Shown here: one piece after another, positions 40,953 to 64,000 of the stretch
Layout: every line of letters starts with the position of its first letter
How positions within the stretch are numbered: position 1 is the first letter of the stretch
DNA from: Mycolicibacterium nivoides
GTDB lineage: Bacteria; Actinomycetota; Actinomycetes; Mycobacteriales; Mycobacteriaceae
Direction of reading: 5' to 3'
Assembly: GCF_003855255.1 (NCBI RefSeq)
Contig: NZ_CP034072.1
Location: 3,818,145-3,882,144 of the forward strand
Length of the DNA stretch: 64,000 nt
Notes under the pieces: model-generated
What the model saw: the letters and a program-made list of their open reading frames with translations, nothing else
The model's database searches: none
Told to the model about the DNA's origin: nothing
Made by a program: the position numbers and the translations under genes

Positions 40953-40957
40953 CGCGG

Positions 40958-43840: not shown

Positions 43841-44265
43841 GCTGCCTTCAGAAGGCAATAGGTGAACGCGCTTTCCCCGGTCTCCACCTTTTCCGACTTG
43901 ACCTCGTCATCCACGATGATGCGGCAGCCGATTCTGTTGCTGTCGCCCTGCGCAATGACGTTGACCATGGCCGTGGCCTCGGTCATCGGGAACTTCAACG
44001 ACCATGGCAGGCTCGCCCCTTCGACAAACCGCGGCTCTGCATCGACGTCGAAATAACTGATGTTGGCCACCGTCCCAGGCGGCCCGAACACCTCGTACAC
44101 CAGTTGTTTGGGGTCGTACGGCTTACGTTTCTCGAGCTCGGTGTCGGCGTACGCGGGGCGGGTCTGGGAGCCGAACACGCCGTGCAACCGCATGACGGTG
44201 AAGCCTCCGGCACCGAGGACGACCAATACCAGTAGCGGAATCCATAACCGCTTCAAAACCCCCAA
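43837..44265 (-). CDS. MmpS-family membrane accessory protein
   Basis: A 142-residue protein with one N-terminal TM helix ([21 protein letters not shown]) and the periplasmic MmpS beta-sandwich ([52 protein letters not shown]). Two Cys (in IGCRI and YCLLKAA) match the MmpS disulfide. I choose the TTG at 44265 because CAGGGGG precedes it by 7 bp and the TM then starts at the normal place; a TTG at 44256 is the alternative. It is translationally coupled to the first mmpL. Confidence 0.85.
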
Positions 44266-44560
44266 AGCACGAACCCCCTGAATCCGTGGCCTAGCCCGGG
44301 CAATCCATGTCGCGGGAACCAGCGATGCACATATTCCGCCCCCCATGCGATGCCGGCAACTCGAATGCGGTGCGCATCCCAGACCGGCCGTGAGGAGGGA
44401 TCACGGCATACACGCGGCACATCGAGCAGGACAATCCGAACCTGACCAGTAGAGCATTCAGGTGACCTCCCATATCTGCCCATTCCCAAGGTGATACGGG
44501 ATCGTAATGCATTTTGCGTGGTCTCCGACGCGGAACGGAATTTAACGCGGCTAACGGTTC
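44266..44560. other. Intergenic 295 bp upstream of mmpS
   Basis: No gene is supported here. The part from about 44490 to 44560 is more AT-rich than the flanks and could carry a leftward promoter for mmpS-mmpL-mmpL. I see no KstR box, RNA gene or strong hairpin. The open frame across it on the minus strand has no family features. Confidence 0.5.
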
Positions 44561-45361
44561 TCACGGCGCGGAATTACCATTGTTTGACTTTGCAAAGAAA
44601 TTCAAGATTGCCGAGTTCACCGCATTTGGCCGTTCCAGAAAGCCGAGGTGCCCGGCGTCAGCGATCTCGAGATAGCGCCCGTGCGGCAGCGCATCCGCCA
44701 CCTCCGCTCCGAGATGCGGCGGCATCACCAGGTCATCGGCGAATCCGATCACGAGAACCGGTGTGGTGATCGTCCGGTAGGCGGCCCGGCGGTCGTTCTG
44801 CGGGGCCACGCCATACTGAGCGCGGACCCCCGGTGTCAGCTTCGCGGGCCACCTGGTGAAAGTGTCGATCCAGTCCCGGACGGCAGCCTCGTTGTTCAAG
44901 GTCTTCGGTGAAAAGTTCTCCAGTAGGCGCAGTTTCGCCTCATATGTGGCGGGCAACTGGACATCGGCCCTGGCGAGGTCACGTTCGGCGGTACGGAAGA
45001 ACTCGCGCGTCAGATCGTGGCGCCCCCGGGTGGCCATGAGAGCGGCCTGGCTCACCAACCCGGGCCGGGACAGCATCAGTTCCTGTGCGATATATGAGCC
45101 CATCGAGACCGCCACCACCCGGACCGGTGCGATTTCGAGTCGCTCGAGCAACTGCGCCGTGTCGGCCACCATCGTTGCCGACGTGAAGCCGTCGGCATCC
45201 GCCGTAGCGCCGACACCCCTGTTGTCGAACGTGATGACCCGGTAGCCGGCGGCGCGAAATGCCGGAACCTGATAGAGATCCCAGGTGCGTCCGACGCCGC
45301 CCTGCCCGGCGATGAACAGAACAGGCTCACCGTCTCCACGGTCTTCGTAGGCCAGGTTCAC
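44561..45361 (-). CDS. Alpha/beta hydrolase
   Basis: A 266-residue alpha/beta hydrolase. VLFIAGQGGVGRTWDLY holds the oxyanion region, then YRVITFDNRGVGAT, the nucleophile elbow VSMGSY (Ser in GxSxG-like V-S-M-G-S), Asp in IGFADDLVMPP, and catalytic His in DAGHLGFLERP. The GTG at 45361 gives VNLAYEDRG behind GGTGGGAA; a longer frame overlaps the upstream gene. It lies 23 bp after the fatty-acyl-AMP ligase gene, so it is probably in the same operon. There it could act as an editing thioesterase or a tailoring esterase for the lipid product. Confidence 0.83.
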   Translation of the reverse strand: MNLAYEDRGDGEPVLFIAGQGGVGRTWDLYQVPAFRAAGYRVITFDNRGVGATADADGFTSATMVADTAQLLERLEIAPVRVVAVSMGSYIAQELMLSRPGLVSQAALMATRGRHDLTREFFRTAERDLARADVQLPATYEAKLRLLENFSPKTLNNEAAVRDWIDTFTRWPAKLTPGVRAQYGVAPQNDRRAAYRTITTPVLVIGFADDLVMPPHLGAEVADALPHGRYLEIADAGHLGFLERPNAVNSAILNFFAKSNNGNSAP

Positions 45362-45384
45362 TTCCCACCCGCCCGCACAGGTTG

Positions 45385-47121
45385 CTATGCGTCCAGGCGG
45401 GCGAACTCGCCCTGCCGGTACTGATCGACGCACGCCGCACGCCGGACCTTGCCGCTCGTCGTGATCGGAATCGAACCAGGCGGCACCAGAACCAGATCCG
45501 CGACACCCAGGCTGTGCGTGTTGAAGATCGCCGAGGTCACTTCACGCTTGACCGCGGAAAGCTGGTCCGCGGGCGTCTCGGGCGACTCGGCCCGCTTCCT
45601 GACTTCGATGATGACGACGAGCTTCTCGGTATGGCCGTCCGGCACCGCAATGGCCGCACACCGGCTCCGGCTGATCTCCTGGATCGTCGCCTCGATGTCG
45701 TCGGGAGAGTGGTTACGCCCGTAGACGATCAGCAGGTCCTTGATGCGACCGATGACGAACAGCTCGCCGTCGAACATGAATCCTGAGTCCCCGGTGCGCA
45801 ACCACGGCCCCTCGGGCGTGCCTGCCGACGGAGCGACGAGGCTGGCACCGAAGGTTGATTCGGACTCCTGCGGTCTGTGCCAGTAGCCGCTTGCGACGTT
45901 GTCCCCGTGCACCCAGATCTCCCCTACGGTGCCGGGCGGACACTCGGTATTCGTCTCGGAATCGACGATCCGGATCGTCGGCGAGACCGGGATGCCGTAG
46001 CTGACCAGCGGTGTACCTGCGCCGTTGCGGCAGCGCCGCGCGGTGCCCGCGGTCAGCGACTCCGATTCGAAGCGCACGATCGCCGGCGGTTCCCCAGATT
46101 CGCGGGTCGCGACGTACACCGTGGCTTCGGCGAGACCGTAAGACGGCCGTATCACCGACGCGCCCAGATTCAGCCGGGAGAAGCGCTGGGTGAAGCGCTC
46201 AAGCGTCGCCGGGTGCACTCGTTCGCTGCCGGTGATGATGGCGAGCACACTCGACAGGTCGAGGCCGGCCATGTCATCGTCCGACGTCTTGCGCACCGCC
46301 AGTTCGAACGCGAAGTTCGGTGCGGCGGTGTAGGTGCGACCGTTCGTGGCCAGCATCTGCATCCACCGGGCGGGCCGTTGCAGGAACGCCACCGGACTCA
46401 TCAGCACGGCCGGGACCCCGGCGAGCACCGGTGCGCATACTCCCAGATACAAGCCCATGTCGTGATAGAAGGGCAGCCACGAGACGATGGTGGAGCCTTC
46501 CGGGATGACATTGTTGAATTCCGCGAAGTAGCCCGACGTCAACTGTTCGTAGTTGGCCAGCAGGTTCCGGTGCGACATCATCACCCCGGCGGGCCGGCGA
46601 GTCGACCCGGATGTGTACTGCAAATAGGCCGTGTCCGTGACACTTTCGCTCTGCAACCCACTGCGTGCCGGGGCACTGAAATCCAACGTGTCGACCTCGA
46701 CGATCGCCGGAGCCGATGCGGAATCCGATCTCACATACTCGGCCACTACGCCGGCGACCGCCGAGGTGGTGAGAATGACCGTCGGCGCCGCGTCCTGCAG
46801 CACCGAGCTGACCCGCTCATCGCTGACGCCACCGAGCGGAACCGCCAGCGGAACGGCGATTCGCCCCGCCTGCATCGCGCCGAAGAAGGCGACGATGTAA
46901 TCCAGCCCCTGCGGCGCAAGGATGAGTGCACGATCACCCGGCGAGCCGAGGCTGCCGAGTTCTCGCGCGACGCCACACGCGCGCCGATACAGCTGCGAGT
47001 ACGTCAGGCTCGTTGCCGAGCCCTCCCAATTATTTTCGTAGTCAATAAATGTCGCCGCGTTGTCGTCGCCCTGCAGGCCGGCACGTTCCCGCAGCAGCGT
47101 CAAAATGGATGCCTCTCCCAC
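45385..47121 (-). CDS. Fatty-acyl-AMP ligase (FAAL, FadD23/FadD28-type)
   Basis: A 578-residue ANL enzyme with [39 protein letters not shown], the [13 protein letters not shown] motif and [20 protein letters not shown]. These are diagnostic of the FAAL branch, which makes acyl-adenylates and passes them to PKS or NRPS carriers rather than to CoA. The GTG at 47121 gives [10 protein letters not shown]; no strong ribosome site is seen. It is divergent from the PKS gene across 409 bp and co-directional with the hydrolase and mmpS/mmpL genes. Its likely job is to load the starter fatty acid onto the PKS or onto the NRPS. Confidence 0.9.
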
Positions 47122-47530
47122 GGAGGTCAGGGTATCGCGGTAATCATGACTGCATATCCGGAACCATCAGCAAATTCCAATTCAATGACCTTATGAATCA
47201 CACCGAGGTCATTACCATCCGCCTCGCAACCGCGAACGAACAATGCTGCGCCCGCTTCGATGGCCTCTGATCTTGACTGTCATGGCCGATGCCCCGAAAC
47301 TGCCGCGAAGTGCTTGCGATCGTTCCTATCTCACCTGTGGATTGATCAGATTCTGAGACAGCATTCCGCAGCGAACATACTGTTAATGATTGTGACCGCC
47401 CTCGACGGCCGCTGAGCCACTAATGGCCGCACGACACTGGCGGCCTAATTCTGTGGCTCAGCGGACGAATACAGGGTATCGAGCCTGACAGCGGCCGAAC
47501 CGCGGAAAGGCCTGCCGGGAGGAGGGGCAA
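47122..47530. promoter_or_regulatory. Divergent promoter region between FAAL and PKS genes
   Basis: 409 bp without a gene. It is AT-richer than the flanks from about 47145 to 47400, where both promoters probably lie. A 7 bp inverted pair (AATGACC 47184-47190, GGTCATT 47217-47223) is a possible operator. Nearer the PKS lies a large compound hairpin (47409-47464). A strong GGAGGAGGGG ribosome site precedes the TTG start of the PKS. No KstR box is present. Confidence 0.6.
47409..47464. repeat. Compound inverted repeat in the PKS leader
   Basis: The outer arms CCGCTGAGCCAC (47409-47420) and GTGGCTCAGCGG (47453-47464) are perfect complements. Inside them GGCCGC (47425-47430) and GCGGCC (47440-47445) pair again, separated by TAAT/TAATTCT bulges. 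It ends 66 bp before the PKS start, so it may lie in the mRNA leader as an attenuator or in DNA as an operator. Confidence 0.7.
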
Positions 47531-50500
47531 TTGACCGCATCCGAGATCGTGAGCGGGGAACGTCCGGGTGCGGATACCGGCACCGATACACCCCGGCCGC
47601 GCGTCACGCCGGTCACTCCCATTGCCGTCATCGGCATGTCCTGCCGGCTTCCCGGTGGCATCGACTCCCCCGAACTCTTGTGGGAGGCCCTGATTCGGGG
47701 CGATGACTTTGTCACCGAAGTCCCGCCCGACCGTTGGGACGCCGACGAGTACTACGACCCGGAGCCGGGGGTGCCTGGTCGGTCGGTGTCCAAGTGGGGC
47801 GCCTTCCTCGACGACGTCGCCGGCTTCGATGCCGACTTCTTCGGTATCAACGAACGCGAGAGTGCCGCACTCGATCCCCAGCACCGATTGTTGCTGGAAA
47901 CCTCCTGGGAGGCCATGGAGCACGCGGGCCTCACGCGGGAAGCCTTGTCGGACTCGCCGACCGGCGTGTTCGTCGGACTGACGCACGCCGACTACCAGAT
48001 GCTGGCCGCCGACGCTCAGTCCTTGGAAGCGGCATACGGCTTCAGCGGCAACAACTTCAGCCTGGCGTCCGGCCGGATCGCTTACGCCCTCGGCGTCCAC
48101 GGGCCTGCGCTCACGGTGGACACGGCGTGTTCGTCCGGCCTGACCGCGATACACCTGGCCTGCCGCAGCCTGCACGAGGGCGAAAGCGATTTCGCGTTGG
48201 CCGGCGGCGCCACCTTGGCGTTGGACCCGCGCAAGTTCGCTTCGGGTTCGGCGGAGGGAATGCTCTCGGCGACCGGACGCTGCCATGCCTTCGATGCCGC
48301 AGCCGACGGATTCGTAGGAGGCGAAGGCTGCGTCATGGTGTTGCTCAAGCGGTTGCCGGACGCCGTGCGTGATGGCGACCGGATCCTCGCCGTCATCCGC
48401 GGCACGGCCGCCAACCAGGACGGTCATACCGTGAACATCGCGACGCCGTCGGATGCCGCACAGACCGCCGTGTACCGAGCGGCGTTGACCGCGGCGGGCG
48501 TGGATCCCGGCACGGTCGGCATGGTCGAGGCACACGGCACCGGCACGCCGGTGGGCGACCCGATCGAATACTCCAGCCTGGCCAAGGTGTACGGCGTCGA
48601 CGGCCCCTGTGCGCTCGCGTCGGTGAAGACCAACATGGGGCATGCCCAGGCCGCCTCCGGGGCCATCGGTCTGATGAAGACGGTCCTCGCGATACAGCAC
48701 GGCGTGGTGCCACAGAACCTGCACTTCACCCGGCTTCCCGACAAGCTCGCCGAAATCCAGACCAATCTCTTTGTGCCCCAGGCGACAACACCGTGGTGCA
48801 CCAACGGGCATCATCCCCGGCGGGCGGCGGTGTCATCGTATGGATTGTCGGGGACCAATGTGCACGCCGTCTTGGAGCAGGCGCCGGTCCCGGCGCCTCA
48901 ACCCGCAGCTGCAGACTCCGCGCTTCCGGCTTCGCCGGTTCCGATGCTGTTCCCGCTGTCGTCCACCTCGGCCGACGAGCTGCGTCACACGGCCGGCCGG
49001 CTGGCCGACTGGCTACAGACACACGAGGATGTCGCCCTACCGGATCTCTCCTACACCCTGGCCCGCCGACGCGTGCACAGGCCGGTGCGCACCGCCGTCA
49101 GCGCGAACAGCCGACCTGATCTCATCGCCGCGTTACGCGAGGTCGCCGACGGCGACACTCCCTACCAAGCCGCGGTCGGTCGCGACGACCGCGGCCCGGT
49201 CTGGGTGTTCTCCGGTCAGGGTTCGCAGTGGGCGGGCATGGGCGCCGAGCTCTTGGCGACCGAACCGGTGTTCGCCGCCACGGTGGCGCAGGCCGAGCCG
49301 GTCATTGCTGCCGAGTCAGGATTCTCGGTGACCGAGGCGATGTCGGCCCCGGAGGTCGTCAACGGTCAGGACCGGTTGCAACCGACGTTGTTCACCATGC
49401 AGGTCGCCATGGCCGCCACCATGAAGGGGCACGGGGTGCGGCCCGGAGCCGTCATCGGCCACTCCCTGGGTGAGGCCGCGGCAGCGGTCGTCGCCGGGGC
49501 ACTGTCGTTGGAGGACGGGCTGCGGCTCATCTGCCGCCGGTCCCGGCTGATGTCCCGAATCTCCGGAAAGGGCGCCACGGCCGCAGTGGAATTGCCTGCC
49601 AAGCAGGTACTTTCGGAGCTGACCGGCCGCGGTATCAACGATGTCGTGGTGGCGGTGGTGGCTTCGCCACAGTCCACCGTGATCGCAGGCACCACACAGA
49701 TGGTGCGCGATCTCGTGGCGGATTGGGAACTACGTGGGGTGATGGCTCGCGAGGTTCCCGTCGATGTGGCCTTCCACTCACCGCAGGTCGAGCCCATCGT
49801 CGGAGACCTGGCCGAGGCCCTTGCAGACCTCAAACCCATGACACCGGAGATTCCGTTCTATTCGGCGACCCTGTTCGATCCACGCGAGCAGCCGGTGTGC
49901 GATGCCGACTACTGGGTGACCAACATGCGCCGGATGGTGCGCTTCGCCTCCGCCGTACAAGCCGCGCTGGAGGACGGCTATCGCGTGTTCGCCGAGCTTT
50001 CGCCACATCCGCTGCTCACCCGAGCGCTCGAGCAGACCGCAAGCGGCCGCGAGACGCCGCTGGCCGCCCTGGCCGCGATGCGCAGACAGCAAGAGATGCC
50101 GGATGGGCTGCGCGGGCTCCTCGTCGATCTGCACAGTGCAGGTGCTGCGGTCGATTTCTCTGTCCTGTGCCCCGACGGCCGGCTGGTGGATGCGCCACTG
50201 CCTAGCTGGACGCACCGCCGGCTGTGGCTCAGCGGCGGCGGTCAGGAACACCCGACCCACGGCGGTTGCACCATCGCAGTTCACCCGCTGCTGGGCGCCA
50301 ACGTGCGGCTGCACGAGGAACCGGAACGCTACGTGTGGCAGGCCGACGTCGGCACTGCCGCCCAGCCATGGCTCGCAGATCACCAAATACGCACTGTTGC
50401 AGTACTTCCGGGTGCGGCGTACTGCGAGATGGCGCTGGCTGCGGCGCAGGCCGTGCTGGGAGAGACTTCCGAAGTCCGCGACATCCGGTTCGAGCAGGCA

Positions 50501-53500
50501 CTGCTCCTGGACGAACAGACAGTGGTCGGAGCCTCCGCCTCGGTGTCATCACCCGGCGTGGCCGCCTTCACCGTCGAGACCGATGAGGAGGGCCAGCAAG
50601 CTCGGCACGCAACCGCGGTCCTGCACGCGGCAGCGGACGAGCAACCCCCTGCGTACGACATGTCGGCGGTCGTTACCGCCCATCCCTGCGACGAGGACGG
50701 CGCAGAGGTGCGTAATCGCGTGGGCCTGCACGGCATTCAGTACGGTCCGGCGTTCACCGGTCTGGTCACCGTGCGTACCGGCGAGACGGAAGCCCGCACG
50801 GTCCTCGCCGAGGTTGCCCTCCCCCGCTCGATCCGCTCCCAGCAGGACGCGTACGGCGTGCACCCGGCACTTCTGGATGCCTGCTTCCAATCGGTCGAGG
50901 CACATCCCGACGTTCAGGCGCTCGGCGGCGACGTGCTGGGATTGCCGCTGGGCGTGCGGCGGCTACGCGCCTACAGCTCGGCCCGCAACGCGCACTACTG
51001 CTACACGCGATTGATCAAGGCCGACGCAACCGGTATCGAGGCCGACATCGATGTGCTCGACAAGGACGGCACAGTCCTGCTGACCGTGCAGGGGCTTCGC
51101 CTTGGCACCGGCGCCTCCGGCAGCGGACACGACGATCAGGTTTTCAGCGAGCGGCTGCTGACGGTCGAGTGGCAACAGCGCGACCTGCCGGAGGTCGAAT
51201 ACGCCGAAGCCGGATCCTGGCTGCTCATCAGCGCCCCGGACGGCCCCGACGCGGCTACCGACACGTTGAGCAGCATCCTGAAAGACCGCGGCGCACAGTG
51301 CACCACGATGAGTTGGCCCAACCAAGCCGACGACACACTGACCTGCGCACAGCTCGGCAACCATTTGCGGGCCGGCCGATTCACCGCCGTGGTTGTCCTG
51401 ACGTCGCCGAACAACGGGGACCACAACGACCAGTCGCCATTGCTGGGTCGCGAGTACCTGCGTCATATGGTGCACATCGCCCGCGAACTACCGGAGATGA
51501 GCGGAGAACTACCTCGCCTGTACGTCGTGACCCGCAACGCCCAGACGGTGGTGGCCGGCGACGTGGCCAATCTGGACCAGGCCGAGCTACGGGGCCTTAT
51601 CCGGGTCATCGGCACCGAACATCCGCACCTGACCGCCACCCAGATCGATGTTGACGAGGCCACCGGCGTGGAGCAGTTGGCACAGCAACTGCTCAGCGGA
51701 TCCGATGAGGACGAAACCGCGTGGCGCAATGGTCGGTGGTATACCGCACGGTTGTGCCTCGCCCCGTTGCGTCCCGAGGAGCGGCAGACCACCGTTGCAC
51801 ATCTCGAACGCGACCGGATGCGGCTGCAGATCCGCACTCCGGGTGACCTGGAGTCGATGGAACTTGTTGCCTGCGAGCATGTTCCCCCGGGATCGGGGCA
51901 GATAGAGGTCGCGGTCAGCGCGTCCAGCATCAACTTCGCCGACGTGCTCGTCGCATTCGGTCGCTACCCCGCGTTCGACGGGCATCTACCCCAACTCGGT
52001 ATCGACTTCGCAGGAGTGGTTACCGCGGTCGGGCCCGACGTCACCGACCACAAGGTCGGCGATCGGGTCGGAGGTCTGTGCGCCGACGGCTGCTGGGGCA
52101 CGTTCGTCACCTGCGACGCACGCCTGGCCGCCACGTTGCCGGCGGGCCTGACGGACGCCGAGGCGGCCGCACTGACCATTGCGACCGCCACCGCCTACTA
52201 CGGGCTGAACGACATGGCCCGAATCAAGTCAGGCGACAAGGTGCTGATCCACTCCGCGACAGGCGGTGTCGGACAGGCGGCGATGGCCATCGCCCGCGCC
52301 GCCGGGGCGGAGATCTTCGCCACCGCCGGCAGCGAGCAGCGCAGACAACTTCTGCGCGACATGGGCGTCGAACATGTCTACGACTCACGGACTTTGGAGT
52401 TCGCCGATCACATCCGCCAGGACACCGACGGATACGGCGTCGACATCGTGCTGAATTCGGTGACCGGTGCCGCCCAGCGGGCGGGCCTCGAATTGCTGGC
52501 ATTCGGTGGGCGATTCGTGGAGATCGGCAAGCGCGACATCTACGGTGACACCCGGTTGGGGCTCTTCCCCTTCCGGCGCAACCTGTCGTTCTACGCCGTC
52601 GATCTGGCGCTGATGTCCGTCAGCCACCCGGATCGGCTCCGGGAGTTGCTGGAAACGGTGTATCTGTTGACCGCCGAGGGTGATCTGCCGAGGCCCGAGG
52701 TCACCCATTTCCCACTTGCAGACGCCGCCACCGCGATTCGGATGATGAGCGGCGCGCAGCACACCGGCAAGCTCGTGCTGGACATTCCACACACCGGTTC
52801 GAGTCGGCTTGTGGTTCCGCCGTCCCAGGTGCGGGTGTTCCGGCCCGACGGCGCGTACATCGTCACCGGTGGCCTCGGCGGGCTGGGGCTGTTCATCGCC
52901 GAGAAGATGGCGGCCAGCGGATGTGGACGAATTGTGCTGTCCTCACGCACGCAGCCGAGCGCCCGGGCATTGGAGATCCTCGAGCGTATCCGCGCGACCG
53001 GCGTCGACGTACTCGTCGAGTGCGGCGACATCGCCGAGTCCGGCACCGCAGAACGGTTGGTGGCCGTGGCGACCGCCGACGGGCTTGCAGTCCGCGGCGT
53101 GTTACACGCGGCAGGCGTGATCGAGGACGCCGCACTGACCAACATCACCGACGAACTCATCGAGCGAGACTGGGCGCCAAAGGTTTATGGCGCCTGGAAC
53201 CTGCACACCGCCACCGCGGACCAGCCTTTGGACTGGTTCTGTTCATTCTCGTCGGCAGCCGCGCTGGTCGGCTCTCCCGGGCAGGGCGCCTACGCTGCCG
53301 CCAACAGTTGGCTGGATGCTTTCAGCCTGTGGCGCCGCTCCCAGGGGTTGCCGGGCACGGCCATCGCATGGGGAGCCTGGGGGCAGATCGGCCGCGGCAC
53401 GGCCCTGGCCGAAGGCGCCGGAATCGCCATCGCTCCCGACGAGGGCGCGTATGCGTTCGAAGCACTGCTGCGTCACGACCGCGCCTACACCGGATACGCG

Positions 53501-53869
53501 CCGATCACAGGTACGCCGTGGTTGTCCGTGTTCGCCGAACGCAGCCCCTTCGCCGAGGCATTCCGATCGACCGGCCAAAGCGCTACGGGCACCAGCAAGT
53601 TACGCGCCGAACTCGACGATCTGCCGCCTGACGAGTGGGCCGCCAAGCTGCGACACGTGATCTCCGATCAGGTGAGCGTGATCCTGCGCCGCAGTGTCGA
53701 TCCGGACCGCCCCCTTTCCGAGTACGGCATGGACTCGCTGGGAGCGCTCGAACTACGCACCCGCATCGAGAACGAAACGGGCATCCGGATCTCGGCCACC
53801 GGAATCACGACCGTGCACGGTTTGGCAGACCTGCTGTGCGAAAAGCTCCTGCCCGCAGGGGCAGCCTGA
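47531..53869 (+). CDS. Type I fully reducing polyketide synthase, KS-AT-DH-ER-KR-ACP
   Basis: A 2112-residue single-module PKS with the length and domain order of mycobacterial Mas/Pks5-type synthases. KS: Cys200 (DTACSSG), His335 (EAHGTGT), His of [10 protein letters not shown]: Ser645 (GHSLG), VAFH at 746-749, the malonyl-type form rather than the methylmalonyl VASH of Mas. DH: His951 and Asp1116. ER: NADPH loop [12 protein letters not shown] near 1573. [10 protein letters not shown] near 1778 and Tyr1921 (GAYAAANSW). ACP: Ser2069 ([10 protein letters not shown]). All domains look active, so it should extend an acyl starter with fully reduced C2 units. Start TTG behind GGAGGAGGGG. No thioesterase: the chain probably passes to the NRPS. 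Confidence 0.93.
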
Positions 53870-54309
53870 CATGCGGTGGACCAAACGGTCGGAACGGGTC
53901 GATTACAGCAAACGCCGGCCCGGATACGGAACCGGCCTGCCCGCGCATCGACCGAACCAGCTCCCGAGTCATACGCCGGCCCACCGGCCATCTCCGCCCA
54001 CGGAGACGACGACGCACGCCCGCCGCATCGACAGTTCCTGATCGGCATTTGGAGAGCGGCGGCGGAGCCGGATTGAAACTCATTACTTAACAAGGGATCT
54101 GACCAAATCGATATCAACATGGCGGGGGAAAGCAACAGGGTATCAGCGAGTTCGCGGAGGCAGTGCGTGATGGGCCCACGCACTGCTGGTTCCGGGCACC
54201 ACGACCAGTACGGCCCTGAGGGCCTGTACGGCCAAATCAGCTCCGACAACTCCTGAATGTTGTCCAGAAAGTCAATACAGCAAATAGATTGCGAGGTAGC
54301 ATTCCGCTC
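53870..54309. other. Intergenic 440 bp between PKS and Gap gene
   Basis: No gene is supported: the open frames here lack family features and ribosome sites. The first 150 bp are GC-rich; from about 54075 to 54130 and 54250 to 54300 the DNA is AT-richer, the latter a likely promoter for the gap gene. Two hairpins lie in between: a perfect one at 54160-54186 and a near-palindrome around GGCCCTGAGGGCC (about 54208-54229). Confidence 0.55.
54160..54186. terminator. Perfect 10 bp inverted repeat downstream of the PKS
   Basis: GCAGTGCGTG (54160-54169) and CACGCACTGC (54177-54186) pair perfectly around a 7 nt loop, 290 bp after the PKS stop. It could end PKS read-through or be a regulatory site for gap. 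No T-run follows. Confidence 0.5.
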
Positions 54310-55137
54310 ATGTGGGGCTCGCTGGCCGTACTGGCACTCTTGACGACGATCAATCCCGTGCGCCTCGGCATCATCATCTTGGTGCTGTCCAGGCCGCGGC
54401 CGATGCAGAACCTGCTCGCCTACTGGACCGGCGCGGTGCTGGTAGGGCTCGCCACCCTCGTCATTCCACTGTTCGTACTCCACTCCACGCCGACATCGTC
54501 GGCTTTCGCGAGAAATTTCGCGCACCCCACCGCGAATCCGATCGCACAGCGCATCACGATCGTCACAGGCGTGGTTCTCCTGGCGATCGCCGTGTTCATG
54601 GTGGCGCGCAACTTGTTACGGACACCCGTCTCGGCAGGTGGCGCCCATCGGAAGGTAGCGGACAACACCGGCGACGGCACCACCACACTCGTACTCGATT
54701 CAGGTGCACCACCCGTCATCACAAGGTTCCTGCATCCCACCGGGAAGTCGGCCGAGACAGACGGGGAAGAAAAGTCTCCGATCCGGCGGCTGCTCGGCCG
54801 CGCGCGTGACGCTTGGCAGAACGGGTCCCCGTGGATTCCCTTCATCATCGGCCTCATAGTGCTTCCACCGCTGGACGGAGTGCTGTTCGCCCTGGCCATC
54901 GTGGTGGCTTCGGGCGCCTCGCTCGAGGTCCAGCTGGTCGCAACGATCGCGTTCGTCTTCGGCGTGCTCTTGGTGGAGGAGATCATTCTCGTCAGCAACA
55001 TAGTCGCACCGGAGAGAACCCAAGCCGCACTGCGTAAGTTGCATGAGTGGGCCCGCATGCATCACCAGAAGTTCGTGGCGGCGATCCTCGCAGTGGTCGG
55101 ACTCTCGTTGTTGGCCAGGGGCATGGGCGGCCTCTGA
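54310..55137 (+). CDS. Gap-family membrane protein (glycopeptidolipid-addressing-protein-like)
   Basis: A 275-residue integral membrane protein of the GAP/Sap LysE-like type. TM segments lie near 3-20, 30-52, 73-94, 165-185, 190-215 and 250-270; a soluble loop occupies about 100-160, and the motif LTTINPVRLGIIILVLSRPRP sits at the N-terminus. Gap proteins are required for delivery of glycopeptidolipids to the mycobacterial surface. The ATG at 54310 is chosen over a TTG at 54289. Placement between the PKS and NRPS genes, with an mmpS/mmpL set nearby, suggests it helps transport the locus product. Confidence 0.83.
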   Translation: MWGSLAVLALLTTINPVRLGIIILVLSRPRPMQNLLAYWTGAVLVGLATLVIPLFVLHSTPTSSAFARNFAHPTANPIAQRITIVTGVVLLAIAVFMVARNLLRTPVSAGGAHRKVADNTGDGTTTLVLDSGAPPVITRFLHPTGKSAETDGEEKSPIRRLLGRARDAWQNGSPWIPFIIGLIVLPPLDGVLFALAIVVASGASLEVQLVATIAFVFGVLLVEEIILVSNIVAPERTQAALRKLHEWARMHHQKFVAAILAVVGLSLLARGMGGL

Positions 55138-55230
55138 TCCGAGTATCGGCCGACGATCTTGATTCAGCGGAAGTCGGAGCCGGCGAGTATCCTGTTAGCT
55201 GAGGATCATGGCTCAGCATTGGGAGGGCCC

Positions 55231-55896
55231 ATGAACACCGTTGTCAGAATGCTGATTTCAGGTTCCATCGGCATGGCCGTGACAGGTCTGGTTATATTTG
55301 CCTCCGCAGGCACATTCGACTACTGGCGAGGTTGGGTGTTTCTCGCGGTGCTCGTGGTCTCGGGTTGGGTGTCGGCCATCTACTTCCTGCGCAAGAATCC
55401 CGCAGTGCTGCTGCGGCGGTTGCCGACCGCCGAAGAGCGACCCCAGCAGAAGGCCATCGCCATTGGTGTCTTGTCGCTGTGGGCGGCAATGATCGTCGTG
55501 AGCGCTCTCGACCACCGCTTCAAATGGTCGGTGGTCGCCACAGAGGTCTCATTGGCCGGCGACGTGCTGGTTGCGCTCGGACTTGCCGCGATCGGCCTGG
55601 TGCTCATGCAGAACAACCATGCGGCCGTGACGGTTCGGGTGGAGGAGAATCAACACCTTGTCTCCACTGGCCTATACGGACTCGTACGACATCCGATGTA
55701 CACCTGCAACGCGCTGCTTCTGGTGGGAATACCCCTTGCGCTCGGCTCCTTCTGGGGCCTCATATTTCTCATCCCGGGCGTCCTGCTCTTCGCGCTACGC
55801 ATCCAGGACGAGGAGAGAGTCCTCGAGGTGGAGCTGGACGGATACCGCGACTACATGCAGAAGGTTCGCTACCGCCTGCTGCCGGGGATTTGGTGA
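55231..55896 (+). CDS. Isoprenylcysteine carboxyl methyltransferase-family membrane protein
   Basis: A 221-residue protein with about five TM segments. The family C-terminal signature GLYGLVRHPMYTCNALLLVG carries the His-Pro SAM-binding region; ALRIQDEERVLEVELDGYRDYMQKVRYRLLPG follows (given here as the conserved E and YxxYxxxxRYRLxPG pattern). Relatives methylate carboxylates or phospholipids in membranes. The ATG at 55231 follows GGGAGGG. It is 93 bp after gap on the same strand and ends 9 bp from the convergent NRPS stop. Methyl-ester formation on a released lipopeptide acid is a tempting but unproven role. Confidence 0.8.
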   Translation: MNTVVRMLISGSIGMAVTGLVIFASAGTFDYWRGWVFLAVLVVSGWVSAIYFLRKNPAVLLRRLPTAEERPQQKAIAIGVLSLWAAMIVVSALDHRFKWSVVATEVSLAGDVLVALGLAAIGLVLMQNNHAAVTVRVEENQHLVSTGLYGLVRHPMYTCNALLLVGIPLALGSFWGLIFLIPGVLLFALRIQDEERVLEVELDGYRDYMQKVRYRLLPGIW

Positions 55897-55905
55897 CCGG
55901 GTCTG

Positions 55906-58900
55906 TCAGCCGTCCAGGAACAGTCTGAGCCGGCTTCCATACTCACTGAGCGCCCTGGGCGTGAACATCTCGTAGTGCGTGCAGTCGACGGAGTACGTGT
56001 TGATCTCGCCGGCAATCCACGGCTGCCAGCTTTGTAGATGGGTCCGGGCGGCCCGCCGGTTCCGTATCCCACGCCAGCGGGACCGTAGTCCCGGTCCGTC
56101 GTCGTCTTCACTTCCGTGCCGCGCGGCCATGAAAATGGCGACCTCTCCATCGAATACCTCGGGCGCGTGATCGAGCAGGCGCAGCTGGTTCTCGTTGAGG
56201 CTTTGGGCCATGAACTCCAGCAACGGCTTTGGCGGGAGAGAGAATCCCAGCACACCCTGTTCCCGAATCAGCTCTTCCGCCCGCTGGTAGTCGATGGGCT
56301 TCCGGTGCGTCGGCACGTCGATGTTGTTGGTCTGCAAGATGTATTCCAGCACCAGTCCCTCGGCCAGCACCCGGTTCTCGGCGACGAGCCTGTCGGCGCC
56401 GGTGGTGAGTTTGTTCGTCCTCAATGCGGCGTCCAGGAGTACGAGGCGCTGGACTTCGCATCCTCGTCGCTGTAGCTCAACGGCGAGCGCATGTGCGACG
56501 ACGCCACCGAACGACCAGCCGAGGAGCCGGTAGGGGCCATCCGGATGCAGGGCTTGAACGCGGTCCGCGTAGATCGCGGCCAGATTGCTTATCGATGTGG
56601 GTTCTGACTGGTCTGCCGTCGGCGTTTGGTTGATTCCGATGATCGGGCAGTCCAGGTATTCGCCGAGTGCCCGATACGACCAGCTCAACCCGAACCCGTC
56701 GTGAATGCAGACCACGGGAATGCCTGAGCCCGCCCTGAGGATGTCGACGGGCACCACTTCCTCAGCACTGCCCGCACTTCCGATCTGCTGAGCCAGGCTT
56801 CTCACGGTCGACGCCTCGAAGATCACGCGTACGGCCAGATGTGCGTCCGTGGCCTTGTTGATCGCGGCGACGGCCCGCATCGCCAGCAGGGAATCGCCGC
56901 CCAGGTCAAAGAACGAGTCATCGACCCCGACGCGCTCCAGACCTAGCACTTCAGCGTAGATCCCGGCCAAGACCTCTTCGGCAGCAGTCTCGGGGGCCTG
57001 GTATTGCCCGACCTTGTATTCAGGTGCCGGCAGAGCACGGGTATCGAGTTTTCCGTTGGAGGTCAGAGGCAATGCATCCACGACCATCACCGCCGCCGGA
57101 ACCATGTAGACCGGCAGCCGGTCGGCCAGAGTCACTCGCGCCCGATCCGGGTCTACCGCCCCGGCCACCGACTCGGTGACATAGCCGACCAGACGCTTGT
57201 CTCCGGGATGGTCCTCCCGGACCATCACCGCGGCCTGCACTACCCCGTCCAGATCGGCCAATGCTGTTCTGATCTCACCGAGTTCGATGCGGTAGCCACG
57301 AATCTTGACCTGCTCATCGGCACGCCCCACGTAACGCAACTGGCCGTCGGCATCCCAATACACGAGGTCACCGGTGCGGTACATCCGGGTTGCGGGCGCC
57401 CCCGGCCCGACGAACGGGCATGCGACGAACCGCGACCCGGTCAATGTGGACCGGCCCATGTAGCCGCACGCCACCCCGCGGCCGGCCACGTACAACTCGC
57501 CCACCACCCCGCTGGGTACCGGGAGGAGCCATTGATCCAGCACGAACAACGCCGACGTCGACACCGGAGCACCGATCGGAACCACCCGCGGCCCTGCCAC
57601 TTCCGGCGTCGTCAACGGCGCACTCATCGACGCATATACGGTCGCCTCGGTCGGGCCATAGGCATTGATCACCACGCGCCCGGGCGCCCATCGGTCCACC
57701 ACATCACTCGGGCAGGACTCACCGCCGAGCAGTAGCGCAGTCGATCCCAACCCCTCCGGCGAGAGAGCCGCCACGGCAGATGGGGTCTGGGTCAGCACAT
57801 TGACGTCTTCTGAAACAAGAACATCGTGGAAGGTCTCCGGCGAATTGGTCACCTCTTCGGGCACCACGACCAGCCGCCCGCCGGTCAACAGCGCCGCCCA
57901 GATCTCCCACACCGAGAAGTCGAATGCGTACGAATGGCACTGCGTCCAAACCTGATTGGCCGGAAGCCCGATGGGCATCGACGCGGCGAGGTGCGTCAGG
58001 TTGTGGTGCGTGATCCCTACCCCCTTGGGAGTACCAGTGGTGCCCGAGGTGTATATCAGGTAGGCGATCTCGTCGGCCTCCGGCGCCGGCAATGCCGTGT
58101 TCGGGTAGCCGTGGATGCGGGGATCATCGATGTCGATGACCGACAGGCCGGCTCTGTCCAGGCGATCGAGGTGCACTGCGGAGGTGATCGCGGCACTCGG
58201 CGCGGCGTCGGCGAGAATGAAAGCGATCCGTGTCTCTGGGTGTGCCGGGTCCATCGGCACATAGGCCGCTCCGGTCTTGAGCACTGCCAGCATCGCCACG
58301 ACCGCCTCGGCGCACCGGTTGAACAGCAGCGCCACACTGTGCCCTGGTCCGATGCCCGCTTCGGCCAGCAAGTGCGCCAACCGATTCGACGCGTCATCGA
58401 GTTCCTGATACGTCTTCGAGCGACTTCCACAGGACTGGGGTGAACGGCCGGCATCCGTCACCGCCACCGCGTGCGGTGCGCGTGCCACCTGCTCGGCGAA
58501 CAACGTCGGCACCGACACCGACACCGCGGAGGTGGTGAGCACGGCGCGGTTGCCGATCTCTTCCAGGCAATCCCGTTCGCCATCGATGAGCACGTCCACC
58601 GATGAGACCCGCTGATGAGCATCGGTGGTCAAGGCCGACACCACCCGCTCCAGGCGCTCGATCAGTGTCCGAATGCTGTCCGCATCGAACACGTCGGTAC
58701 GGAACTCCACGGAGCCGACGATTCCGTCCGGTGCTCCGGTCCCGGTCCAGCGCTCCTCAAGGGAGAAAGCAAGGTCCATCCGGGCGGCCTGCGTGTCGGC
58801 CGGAAGCGGGGTCACCTGCAGGTCGCTCAGAAGTGGCTCGGTGCCAGACTCGCCGCTGTCTCGGGAGACGAAGTTCTGCCAGGCGAACATCACCTGGACC

Positions 58901-61900
58901 AGGGGGTGGTGGGTCAGGCTCCGGATCGGGTTGAGCCGATCCACGAGCACCTCGAAGGGCACGTCCTGGTGCTCGTAGGCGGCCAGGCTGCGCCGGCGTA
59001 TCTGGGCCATGAGCTCCGCGAAGGTCGGGTCGCCGCCAAGGTCCACCCGTAGCACCAAGGTGTTGACAAAGAATCCCACCAGATCGTCGAGCGCCGGATC
59101 TCGCCGCCCCGCAATCGGGAAACCCACCGCCACATCAGAATTGGCGCTCAGCTTCGACAGCAGCACCGCCAGCGCCGCCTGCAGCACCATGAAGCTGGTG
59201 GCATCATGCTCCCGCGCCAGTCGACCGATTCTCTGCTGCAGTTCAATCGGCCAATTCACCGCCACACTTGCTCCGCGGTAGTCGGCGACCGGCGGATACG
59301 GCCGATCCGTCGGCAACTCGAGACGCTCGGGCAGCCCTGCCAATGCCTGCTCCCAGTACGCCACCTGGGCGGCGATCGGACTGCCGGCATCGTTGAGATC
59401 ACCTAGTTGCTCGCGTTGCCACAGCGTGTAGTCGACATACTGCACCGGCAGCGGCGACCAGTCGGGAACCTGACCCACGCATCGGCCGGCATAGGCCATC
59501 CCGAGATCGCGCACCATCGGCGCGATCGACCAACCGTCGGCAGCAATGTGGTGGACCACCACAACGAGTACGTGCTCACTCTCGTCGACGCGCAAAAGCG
59601 TTGCCCGTACCGGAACTTCGCCGGCCAGATCGAAGCAGTGCCGCACCGTCGCGTCGACGGCCTCCCGCAGCCGCGGCTTCGGCCACCCGCGGGCATCCAC
59701 CACCTGCCAACTGAACTGCGCCTGCTCCGTGGGAATCACGACCTGCTGCGGTAGCCCATCGAGCGCCGTAAAGACGGTACGCAGGCTCTCGTGCCGGGCC
59801 ACCACATCGGTGAGCGCCGCCCCCAGCGCTTCGCTATCCAGCGTCCCGGTGATCCGGTAGGCGGTAGGCATGTTGTAAACCGGTGAGGGGCCCTGCAACT
59901 GGTCCAGGAACCACAACCGCTGCTGGGCATACGACAACGGCAGCACCGCGGGCCGCTCCTGGACGGTCAGTGCCGCGCCGGCCCGATCCCCGGCATGTGC
60001 GCTCATCCACTCGGCCAACTCGGCCACGGTGGGGGCATCGAACAAGGCCCGGATCGTCACCTCGACATTCAGCTCGGCCCGGATTCGCGCGACCAGTCGC
60101 GTCGCGGAGAGGGAGTGTCCGCCGAGGTCGAAGAACCCGTCGTCGATACCGACTCGGGCGACCCCCAGAACCTCACCGAACAGGGCGACCAGAGCCCGCT
60201 CGCGCTGGTCACGAGGAGCCCGGTAGGCCACCGCGCTGTTAAACTCCGGGTTCGGCAGTGCCCGGCGATCGAGTTTGCCGTTGACGGTGAGCGGCAGGGC
60301 GTCCAGCACCATGATCGCCGCGGGCACCATGTATTCGGGCAGCTTGTCCCCCGCGAAACGACGCAGTTCCCCCGCCCGTTCGATCGCAGACGGGTCGTTG
60401 ACGTATGCGGCCAGTGAGCCCGCTGCAGTGCTGGGCAGGTAAAGATCCGACAGCGCCGGCACGGCACCGTCGGCCGATGACGCGGCGGCACGGGTGTAGA
60501 TGATGTCAACCAGCCCATCACACTGCGACCAGGTCACGGCCGCGGCGTACCCCAGCTCCCGCCCCAGCTGCAGGCAGTCATGCGGTAGCATTGCGCCGGA
60601 AGCCGAAATGCCGGAACGCAACTCGCTGACATACTCGCGGTCACCCGCGTTGTCCAGCTCGCGTACCAGCTCCACATCCGGCCAGATTCCGGCATGAGGA
60701 ACCCCGGAGACGCGCAGCTCCGGTAACCCCTCGGACCGCAGATGGTCGGCCAGCCTGGCCAGGCCCCCGAACCGCTGCCATGGTTCGGATGGCAGGTCCG
60801 CAACCGACCGCACCGGGATCGGCCCCTTGCGTAGCACCACCTCATACCGATAGCCGCTGAGTTCGTTGATCGCCCGCATGTCCTTGAGTCGCACCTCGAC
60901 AGCGGCGATGTCGTCGAGGTGTCGCGGCAACGCCGCAAAGAACTCCGGAGCCACCAAGAGCTCCTGTTCGGAGAGTATCTCCCGACGCACCCGCTCACCT
61001 ACCGCGGCAGCTCTGTCCTCGGCGTCACGGACGTCCTCACCGCTGGCGCATACCACCCCGGCAGTGAACGCCCGCAACAGCGACAGGTTGCGCACATCGC
61101 CGATGAACAGAGCCCCGCCGGGTGCCAGTGACCGCATCGCCACGGCCAGCACATCGAGCAGATAGCCCGCACTCGGGAAGTACTGGATGACCGAATTGAG
61201 CACCACTACATCGAAGTGACCCTGCGGAATCCCATCGGGGGCGTCGGCCGGCTGCGCCCGCAACCGTACCCGGTCGGCCCATGGCTGCCCGGCGACTTTC
61301 GCCCGCAATGTCTGGATCGTCGGTGGCGAGAAGTCCGTTGCCCAATACTCGACGCACTCCGGGGCCACCTGCGCAAGCAGCAGCCCCGAGCCCACACCGA
61401 TCTCCAGCACTCGGCGCGGTCGCAGCGCCAGGATCCTGGCAACCGCGGCCGAACGCCATTCCTCCATCTGCGGCAACGGAATTGGATCTCCGGTGTAGCT
61501 GCTGTTCCAGCCACCGAAGTCCTCGCCCAGTTCGGTGGGCGTGCCCGTGGTGAAGGACTCACCCGAGTACAGGCCCTCGTACACGCCCTGCCACTGGTCG
61601 ACGAGTTCCGCTTCGCGGGCAGACTCGCGGACCAGCATCATCTCCGGGTCCAGGACGACATAGGCCACCAACCGTTTGTCGGCGGTCGGCTCACCCTGGC
61701 TCGCGGTGGACGTGGTGGTGTGGGCGACGACCACCGCTTGGGAGACGCGGGGATGGGACGCCAACACCGACTGGATTTCGCCGAGTTCGATGCGGTAGCC
61801 GCGGATCTTGACCTGCTCGTCCGCGCGGCCGGCATACCGCAGCTGCCCGTCGGCTCCCCAGGACACCCGATCCCCGGTGCGGTACATCCGGGTGCCCGGC

Positions 61901-64000
61901 GGCCCGAACGGGCAAGGGACGAAACGCGATCCGGTCAACCCCGGCCGGCGCACATAACCGATGCCGACGCCACGGCCGGCCACATACAGCTCCCCCACCA
62001 CACCTGGCGGGACTCCGCGTAGCCACTGGTCCAACACGAACAGCCCGGCGCCGGGTACCGGCGCACCGATCGGTACGACACCCGCCCCGGCGTGTAGCGG
62101 AGCGCTGATCGTGGCGTACACCGTTGTCTCGGTCGGGCCGTAGCCGTTGATCATCACCCGGCCCGGCGCCCACCGATCCACCACTTCCTGCGGGCACGGT
62201 TCAGCGGCCACCATCAACGCCGACACCGATTCCAATCCCGCCGGCGAGAGCATCCCCACCGCGGACGGGGTTTGACTCAACACCGTCACCCGCTCACCGA
62301 CAAGCAACGCCTGCAGCTCCTGTGGTGACCGCGTCACCTGCTCGGGCACCACCACCAGTCGCCCACCGTGCAACAGAGCGCCCCAGATCTCCCACACCGA
62401 ATAGTCAAAAGCCAACGACGAACACGCAGCCCACACCTGCTGCGGACCCATCTCGACACCCACGTCCAGACCATCGAAAAGCCGCGTCACGTTCTGATGG
62501 GTGACGGCAACACCTTTGGGCACACCCGTGGTGCCCGAGGTGTAGATGATGTGCGCCACGTCGTCAGCGGCCGGCCCCGCCGCCACAGGCGTGCCAGGCG
62601 AGGAGTCGATCCGGGGATCGTCAACCTGTAGGACCGGCACACCGCAGCCGGCCATCCGGTCAACCAAGCCAGCCGTGGTCAGGACCACCACCGGCGCAGC
62701 ATCGGCCAGCATGAACTGCACACGCGCTTCCGGATGGGCCGGGTCGATCGGCAGATACGCCGCCCCTGACTTCAGCACACCCAGAATCGCGACGATCGCA
62801 TGAGCCGACCGGCCTGTCAACAAACCGACACAGCGCCCCGGTCCGGCACCCATTCCAACCAGCAAGTGTGCCAATCGATTCGATGCCTCATCAAGCTCGC
62901 GGTAAGTCAACGACCGGTCGCCGAACCGCACCGCCACCGCATCAGGGGCCCGCACCACCTGGCCGGCAAACAGCTCAGGAATCGATGATTCGGTCCCATA
63001 GCGGGCCAACACACCCCGGTGACCAACTTCGTCCAAACGCACCTGCTCAAACGCATCGAGCAGGTCCACCGACGACAGCCGACGACCCGGGTCAGACGTC
63101 ATCGCCACTAACACCCGGCGCAACCGCTCAATCAGGGTCTCGATGCTGGCCGCATCGAACACATCGGTCCGGAATTCCACCGAGCCCCAGATTCCGGCAG
63201 GCTCGCCGGCGTCGGTCCAGTGCTCTCGAAGGAAGAGCACCAGATCCATGCGGGCAGTCTGAGTGTCAGCCTCCAGCGGGGCGGCCTGCACATCACCCAA
63301 ACTGAGCGCGGTCGCGGCGTCATTGTCCAGACCGGGCAGATTTTGCCAGGCAAAGATCACCTGGATCACGGGCTCATGGGCCAGGCTGCGGGTCGGGTTG
63401 AGCCGCTCGACCAGCACCTCGAACGGCACGTCCTGGTGCTCGAAGGCTGCCAACGCACGCTGACGCACCTGCTCGACCACCTCGGCGACCGTGGGGTCAC
63501 CACTCAGATCCACCCGCAGCACCAGCGTGTTGACGAAGAACCCGACCAACTCATCGAGCGCCGGATCGCGACGCCCAGCGATCGGGAACCCGACTGCCAC
63601 ATCAGAGCTGGCACTCAATTGGGCAAGCAGCACCGCCAGTGCGGCCTGCACCACCATGAAGCTGGTGGCGTTGTGCTCGTGGGCCACCCGCGTGACTTGC
63701 TGTTGCAACTCGGCCGGCCAGTCCACCATCACGGTTGCGCCACGGTGGTCTGCCACCGGCGGGTAGGGACGGTCAGTCGGTAGCTCCAGCCGCTCGGGCA
63801 GCCCGGCCAGCGCCTGCTCCCAGTAGGCCAGTTGTCCGGCGATGCGGCTGTCCGGGTCGGTCAGATCGCCCAGATGCTCGCGCTGCCACAGCGTGTAGTC
63901 GACATACTGCACCGGCAACGGTTCCCAGGCCGGGGCCTGTCCCGCGCACCGGCATGCATACGCCACTCCCAGATCCCGCACCAGCGGCCCGATCGACCAG
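55906..64000 (-). CDS. Non-ribosomal peptide synthetase, C-terminal modules: C-A(nMT)-PCP-C-A-PCP-TE
   Basis: About 2,700 residues are visible; the N-terminus is beyond the right edge. Approximate order on the minus strand: condensation domain (64000-63050, HHxxxDG off the edge); adenylation domain (62990-61730); N-methyltransferase inserted before motif A9, with SAM loop VLEIGVGSG (61640-60800); rest of A (60420-60250); PCP with Ser at 60112-60114 (GGHSL); condensation domain with HHIAADGWS near 59540; adenylation domain (58540-57030); PCP with Ser at 56890-56892 (GGDSL); thioesterase with GWSFGG Ser at 56512-56514. No epimerase is seen. The last two residues added should be an N-methyl amino acid and an unmethylated one, then released by the TE as acid or lactone. 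Confidence 0.95.

Follow-up and report, generated by a model that had tools for sequence, protein, structure and literature searches.

The 64,000 nucleotides of Mycolicibacterium nivoides DNA analysed here (the window; G000:C1:3818145-3882144 in the coordinates of its own genome) carry a lipopeptide locus built around a nonribosomal peptide synthetase (NRPS) that ends in a thioesterase (TE). The locus is most likely a cluster for the biosynthesis and export of a lipopeptide of the fortuitine family, a nine-residue, N-methylated lipopeptide methyl ester of a class whose earliest known compound was reported in 1965.

Domains in the window were called by a Pfam profile scan. A FadD28/FadD23-like fatty acid-AMP ligase (FAAL) is encoded on the minus strand at 45385-47121 (NCBIfam fatty-acid--AMP ligase, 978 bits, cut-off 775; PDB FadD23, E=3.1e-238). 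On the plus strand follow a single-module reducing type I polyketide synthase (PKS) with the order KS-AT-DH-ER-KR-ACP (47531-53869; Pfam), a SfLAP family membrane protein of the Gap/Sap type (54289-55137; Pfam SfLAP, 170 bits), and a predicted carboxyl O-methyltransferase of the isoprenylcysteine carboxyl methyltransferase (ICMT) type (55231-55896; Pfam PEMT/ICMT), whose open reading frame spans 55159-55896 with the ATG at 55231 as its likely start. The catalytic motifs of the PKS are present, but its DH motif reads HxxxTxxxxP instead of the consensus HxxxGxxxxP, and this departure at one residue makes full reduction by the PKS uncertain. The SfLAP protein is 38% identical to one at the glycopeptidolipid (GPL) locus of the same genome. 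The remaining genes are all on the minus strand: an alpha/beta hydrolase (44561-45433; Pfam Abhydrolase_1), found by tblastn at 18 of 18 fortuitine-type loci; the MmpS accessory protein (43837-44346; Pfam Mycobact_memb, 195 bits); and two MmpL transporters, the first at 40958-43858 (Pfam MMPL, 717 bits) and the second at 38088-41522 (753 bits), the latter 65-66% identical to the MmpL proteins of the GPL locus. A preliminary description of this DNA had named the FAAL, the PKS, the Gap-type gene and an mmpS-mmpL-mmpL set, and Pfam matches were obtained for all of them; the transporter set, which it had placed within 44561-64000, lies to the left of that interval, at 38088-44346.

The synthetase gene itself, NRPS2, runs on the minus strand from the right edge of the window to the immediate vicinity of the methyltransferase gene (55906-64000, the C-terminal part). 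Its frame is uninterrupted across the window and encodes condensation (C), adenylation (A), N-methyltransferase (NMT), peptidyl carrier protein (PCP) and TE domains in the order C(partial)-A-NMT-PCP-C-A-PCP-TE, with two PCP domains and Pfam matches of 38 to 513 bits. The partial C domain (63040-63999; model positions 145-453) precedes the N-methylating module, which is module 8 by comparison with relatives. The A domain of this module, A8 (61954-62964), has the code DYWSMAGVYK, which is taken to specify Val on the model of fortuitine, and is followed by the embedded NMT (61108-61407; Methyltransf_12, 56.5 bits). The last module consists of an LCL-type C domain (58570-59946; Pfam 316 bits, and 714 bits with a model of the C domains of NRPS1, the partner synthetase described below), the domain A9 with the code DFWTLGAVYK (approximately 57049-58400), and a PCP. 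The type I TE (55960-56718; Pfam 84 bits) has Ser, Asp and His residues that are invariant in 15 of 15 aligned proteins. The PCP-TE ending and the NMT embedded in the penultimate module are as the preliminary description had them.

Positions beyond 64000 continue the numbering of the window. A run of 100 N occupies 64001-64100, directly after the window and inside the NRPS gene, so that the visible NRPS is truncated by an assembly gap. Beyond the gap lie the start of NRPS2, a stub of A6 (64101-64707), then NRPS1 (64704-84290; 6,528 aa) and an MbtH gene (84340-84570). NRPS1 has the order Cstarter-A-PCP, C-A-NMT-PCP, C-A-PCP, C-A-PCP, C-A-NMT-PCP, C; it thus comprises five modules, with N-methyltransferases in modules 2 and 5 and without an epimerase. 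As NRPS2 opens directly with an A domain and the preceding C domain is on NRPS1, the two subunits are divided at C6|A6. In the GPL synthetase of this genome the subunits are likewise divided between a C and an A domain. Intact relatives suggest that the gap hides at least the remainder of module 6, module 7 and the beginning of C8. Reading past the right edge, a check proposed in the preliminary description, thus yielded the five-module NRPS1 and the start of NRPS2 and was interrupted by the gap within NRPS2. That description had overlooked the N run at the window's edge and the ICMT-type gene; a further correction to it is the hydrolase gene at 44561-45433.

Neither Pfam nor C-domain model scores gave an epimerase or a DCL-type C domain in the visible modules of the window line, which bears out the earlier statement on the two modules inside the window. 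When scored with a C model built from NRPS1 of the window genome, full-length inner C domains of the fortuitine-type lines reach 659-820 and partial ones 313-516, whereas C domains that follow an epimerase in GPL and other lines score 101-133. The origin of the model raises the scores of NRPS1 itself; since the non-epimerising C domains of another cluster in the same genome reach 696-701, the difference is not solely due to this origin. The first C domain scores 42-88, similar to the first C domains of other lipopeptide lines (52-63).

A TE scan of species genomes, which may omit genomes very close to that of the window, found 16 loci. Fifteen are mycobacterial: M. sp. URHD0025, M. porcinum (2), M. 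frederiksbergense, M. spp. NS-7484 and GA-1841, M. senegalense, M. septicum (2), M. houstonense (2), M. montefiorense, M. setense, M. peregrinum and M. sp. CBMA 247. One weak myxobacterial match was dropped. At least 155 of 396 genomes of the genus have such a TE at E<=1e-40, and the ending is therefore common in the genus. The loci of 20 relatives were examined, from 10 of the 12 named genomes (G001-G012 minus G005 and G011) and from 10 of the 155 chosen by score and frame length. Because of this choice, and because several of the 155 are named genomes again under other handles, the locus counts do not represent a random sample. In 17 of the 20 relatives the locus includes FAAL and PKS and has the architecture of the fortuitine type, which together with the window gives 18 loci; G009 (M. 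montefiorense), G043 and G289 have epimerase-type C domains and were set apart as different lines. Fifteen loci, the window's included, have a full NRPS1; URHD0025, M. porcinum (contig edge) and M. setense (two short NRPS1 pieces) are not counted. All 15 of these NRPS1 proteins have N-methyltransferases in modules 2 and 5 only, and the complete NRPS2 proteins of relatives have four modules, which makes nine with NRPS1. The NRPS1 of M. senegalense (L059-L062) consists of two overlapping frames split inside a C domain, by either an assembly error or a real break.

To read the specificity codes, A domains were aligned with the Phe domain of the window genome's own GPL synthetase. The GPL peptide is Phe-Thr-Ala-alaninol, and the GPL locus provides the anchor codes DAWTVAAICK (Phe), DYWSVGMVHK (Thr), and DVWCVAAVYK and DVWYVAAIYK (Ala). 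NRPS1 has the codes DYWSMAGVYK, DAFLVGAIWK, DYWSMAGVYK, DYWSMAGVYK and DAFLVGAIWK, a pattern a-b-a-a-b in which b is methylated. At 8 of the 18 loci, hereafter the Thr-Thr loci (M. septicum, M. houstonense, M. setense, G136, G251, G309, G339 and G360), the NRPS2 adjoining NRPS1 has the codes DYWS(V/I)GMVHK twice, DVWSVAAVYK and DVWNVAGWYK; in G251 the TE-bearing end is in a separate short frame. The Thr-type code at these loci is identical to the in-genome GPL Thr code or one letter off, and DVWSVAAVYK agrees with the in-genome GPL Ala code at 9 of 10 letters. Thr and Ala may thus be assigned by the in-genome anchor, and the other residues by the match to fortuitine alone. A literature search for six of the A-domain codes found no mention of them.

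Fortuitine was among the first natural peptides to be sequenced by mass spectrometry. We take its structure to be acyl-Val-MeLeu-Val-Val-MeLeu-Thr(Ac)-Thr(Ac)-Ala-Pro-OMe, all-L. The loci agree with this structure in length (nine modules, in relatives), in the methylation sites at residues 2 and 5, in the repeat pattern, in the absence of an epimerase, in Thr-Thr-Ala (at the eight loci), in a FAAL and reducing PKS for a saturated acyl chain, and in a predicted carboxyl methyltransferase for the methyl ester. Fortuitine was described as an 'acylnonapeptide methyl ester' in the title of the original report (Barber et al. 1965, as listed in the references of PMC3509699). No gene cluster for it was found in the literature searched, which mostly excluded subscription journals, nor in the parts of PMC7261415 that were consulted. 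The preliminary description recognised no described product with this ending; the architecture of the family fits fortuitine, though the tail of the window line differs. In G360, the class A beta-lactamase region is identical at 215 of 216 residues to PDB 2cc1, presumably the enzyme of M. fortuitum. G360 is therefore probably M. fortuitum, the namesake species of fortuitine. The comparison covered G360, G309 and the window genome; G309 and the window genome match less well. Codes 1-5 of the window line (D[YF]WSMAGVYK and DAFLVGAIWK) agree with those of G360 but for one letter: at positions 1, 3 and 4 the second letter is Y in the window line and F in G360 (DFWSMAGVYK).

Two kinds of tailoring genes accompany the synthetases. 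Each of the eight Thr-Thr loci carries 2 to 6 acyltransferase-like genes and none of the ten other loci has any, a distribution that would fit the two O-acetyl-threonines of fortuitine; as the genomes are related, it does not represent 18 independent events. The window's locus has no such gene, and one is found on a fragment of the same genome at 25.6-33.5 kb. The ICMT-type gene is present at 13 of the 18 loci, including the window's, with more than one copy at six, some of them partial matches. Its product in the window matches Pfam PEMT (37.7 bits) and ICMT (34.5 bits), both above cut-off, and the motifs GxYxxxRHPxY and EE are invariant in 7 of 7 aligned proteins of this type. Searched against the PDB, a profile of these proteins matches isoprenylcysteine carboxyl methyltransferases of archaeal and animal origin (E=3.3e-11 for 4a2n, and 5.8e-4). 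The window locus is thus predicted to carry a carboxyl methyltransferase gene suited to the formation of a methyl ester.

From the order of genes and domains, the following course of biosynthesis can be proposed. The FAAL would activate a long fatty acid, to which the PKS would add one two-carbon unit and then reduce it. The starter C domain of NRPS1 would load the saturated acyl chain onto residue 1. NRPS1 would then assemble the pentapeptide Val-MeLeu-Val-Val-MeLeu, and this would be transferred to NRPS2 over the C6|A6 break. NRPS2 would add four residues, the last two of which are represented in the window: an N-methylated residue taken as MeVal, followed by the residue specified by DFWTLGAVYK. 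The TE would free a linear acid, the C-terminal carboxyl of which would be methylated by the ICMT-type enzyme, and the MmpS/MmpL proteins together with the SfLAP protein may bring the product to the envelope.

The preliminary description had predicted an N-methylated lipopeptide exported by an MmpS/MmpL pair and released as an acid or a cyclic lactone. The N-methylated lipopeptide from a TE-ending line with an MmpS/MmpL set is retained; a linear methyl ester is likelier than either form of release, since the locus encodes an ICMT-type methyltransferase and its PKS has both DH and ER domains. Cyclisation is common among type I thioesterases, and the TE might close a lactone on a Thr or Ser side chain or on a beta-hydroxy acyl chain, as in compounds of the peptidolipin type. 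The DH motif one residue off the consensus and the 5 of 18 loci without an ICMT-type gene, which also count against a methyl ester throughout the family, would suit such a cyclic depsipeptide. A PKS with DH and ER domains, however, is not expected to leave a beta-hydroxyl, and a carboxyl methyltransferase at the locus would be superfluous for a lactone; we regard cyclisation as very unlikely. A free linear acid would require another substrate for the ICMT-type protein, whose PEMT score is slightly above its ICMT score and whose match to the NCBIfam equivalog (56 bits) is far under the cut-off of 160. This too is unlikely: the ICMT-type gene and the NRPS gene form a convergent pair, the former ending nine bases from the NRPS stop, ICMT-type genes recur beside extra NRPS2 genes in several genomes, and fortuitine itself is named a methyl ester in the title listed in PMC3509699.

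Several observations weigh against the assignment to fortuitine or against the methyl ester. The structure model of the ICMT-type protein is of low confidence (pLDDT 64.5), and a fold search with it gave no match at E<=0.001. Among four acyltransferase-like proteins scanned, one had a Pfam match (WS_DGAT_cat), just under cut-off, and its match to NCBIfam acyl_WS_DGAT is far under cut-off. NRPS2 includes a Thr-type code in G003, G012, G033, G264 and G292, yet their loci lack an acyltransferase. Taken alone, the codes read here as Val, Leu and Pro do not indicate these residues. Judged by the top four matches among reference and in-genome codes, DYWSMAGVYK is closest to Trp, Thr and Ala codes (6 of 10 letters), DAFLVGAIWK to Phe and one Leu code (6 of 10), and DVWNVAGWYK to in-genome Ala codes (7 of 10), not to Pro. 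Position 1 is DIWGLGQMWK in 5 of the 15 full NRPS1 proteins and position 4 is DFWTLGAIYK in two (M. septicum and G251), so that the pentapeptide is not identical everywhere. The two short NRPS1 pieces of M. setense (L087-L090), outside the 15, reflect an assembly error or a real break. In the window line, positions 6-7 lie inside the gap; the assembly shows seven full A domains and part of another, and the nine modules are seen in intact relatives, not in the window genome. Finally, the window tail has an N-methylated DYWSMAGVYK followed by DFWTLGAVYK instead of an Ala-type code followed by DVWNVAGWYK. Together with the extra NMT in the penultimate module and the lack of an acyltransferase at the locus, this suggests that the window line probably makes a sibling of fortuitine with a different tail.

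Different tails are also found within single genomes. A second NRPS2 with other codes is present at all eight Thr-Thr loci and in G264; in M. septicum, M. houstonense and G251 its codes are DYWSMAGVYK, DVWSVAAVYK, DIWGLGQMWK with an NMT, and DVWNVAGWYK. Two NRPS2 genes behind one NRPS1 in these nine relatives suggest alternative tails. The N-termini of 19 NRPS2 proteins are mostly alike (TADL[ST]RRLSSxDFLDEDEH) and are therefore compatible with docking on one NRPS1. There is about an even chance that one NRPS1 supplies several interchangeable NRPS2 proteins, each with its own TE and often its own methyltransferase and acyltransferases. The products would then be nonapeptide methyl esters that share one pentapeptide and differ in their tetrapeptide tails, and the window line would be one chemically undescribed tail variant.

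The fragment mentioned above (G000:C1:25600-33500) contains a TE end, an ICMT-type gene, an acyltransferase-like gene, HSP90 and MbtH, as well as the start of a Thr-coded NRPS2 that breaks off within its A domain, with unrelated sequence on either side. It can be read as part of a second NRPS2 locus that has been misplaced or rearranged. URHD0025 and M. porcinum likewise each have one acyltransferase-like copy with an ICMT-type gene and HSP90 on a fragment apart from the main locus, and contig C45 of M. porcinum ends with an Ala-like code and DVWNVAGWYK, then a TE. It is quite possible, though somewhat short of an even chance, that the NRPS2 part in the window and the A6 stub beyond the gap come from separate NRPS2 genes arranged in tandem, like those of M. 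septicum, and that the genome makes fortuitine and a second peptide. This would be compatible with a fortuitine-family cluster. The two NRPS2 genes at the Thr-Thr loci and in G264, the stray fragment with its Thr-coded start and TE end, and the similar NRPS2 N-termini argue for it; on the other hand, the fragment sits 3.8 Mb away without an N run around it, and six relatives (G003, G004, G006, G012, G033 and G292) have a single NRPS2.

The GPL-like companions noted earlier, MmpS/MmpL and SfLAP, are present, as are MbtH, the C|A subunit break and a lipo-starter C domain, all shared with the GPL system (Mps1/Mps2). GPL synthesis differs in its epimerase-type domains, Phe-Thr-Ala-Ala codes and terminal reductase. 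These features are found at a separate GPL-type locus of the window genome, in support of the earlier distinction from GPL. The window line ends in a TE, and neither the GPL module codes for Phe-Thr-Ala-Ala(inol) nor epimerisation domains and a terminal reductase were found in its visible modules. As the GPL-type locus lies elsewhere in the genome, the reading of the window as a GPL locus with a replaced ending was rejected. A second NRPS gene for the standard GPL tetrapeptide had been named as one finding that would overturn the preliminary description; the extension gave NRPS1 with its a-b-a-a-b codes, not those of GPL. The lipopentapeptide L5P of M. avium paratuberculosis, D-Phe-N-MeVal-Ile-Phe-Ala according to PMC8103206, is likewise an N-methylated mycobacterial lipopeptide, but it has five residues starting from D-Phe, whereas the window line has its seven complete and one partial A domains (nine in relatives), no epimerase and no Phe code at position 1. 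The peptidolipins of Nocardia are lipopeptides of related actinobacteria; they differ from the product proposed here in being cyclic and in having a beta-hydroxy acyl chain.

Two other NRPS loci of the same genome were noted. The large NRPS pair at G000:C1:1235314-1268500 (L037-L039; frames of 8132 and 2813 aa) has epimerase-type C domains and lies close to an ICMT-type gene and SfLAP; it probably makes a second lipopeptide methyl ester. A two-module NRPS at G000:C1:238001-258000 (L040) has an epimerase-type domain, a terminal reductase motif and the codes DVWCVAAIYK and DYWSMAGIYK. An HSP90 gene lies within 13 of the 18 main loci (for example L080:15211-17172) and is absent from the window's. 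To the left of the cluster (window 12674-37951) are an AMP-ligase, a P450, a hydantoinase A/B pair, a hexapeptide-repeat protein, a luciferase-like monooxygenase, a sulfotransferase-family protein and an IclR-type regulator. Rfam and tRNA scans of the window gave no matches.

If the assignment is correct, genes would now be linked to fortuitine, which has been known as a mycobacterial lipopeptide since 1965, and its function would become open to gene-removal tests in rapidly growing mycobacteria. Across the M. fortuitum group, loci of this family differ in their C-terminal synthetases and would offer a natural example of a single NRPS head combined with alternative tails.

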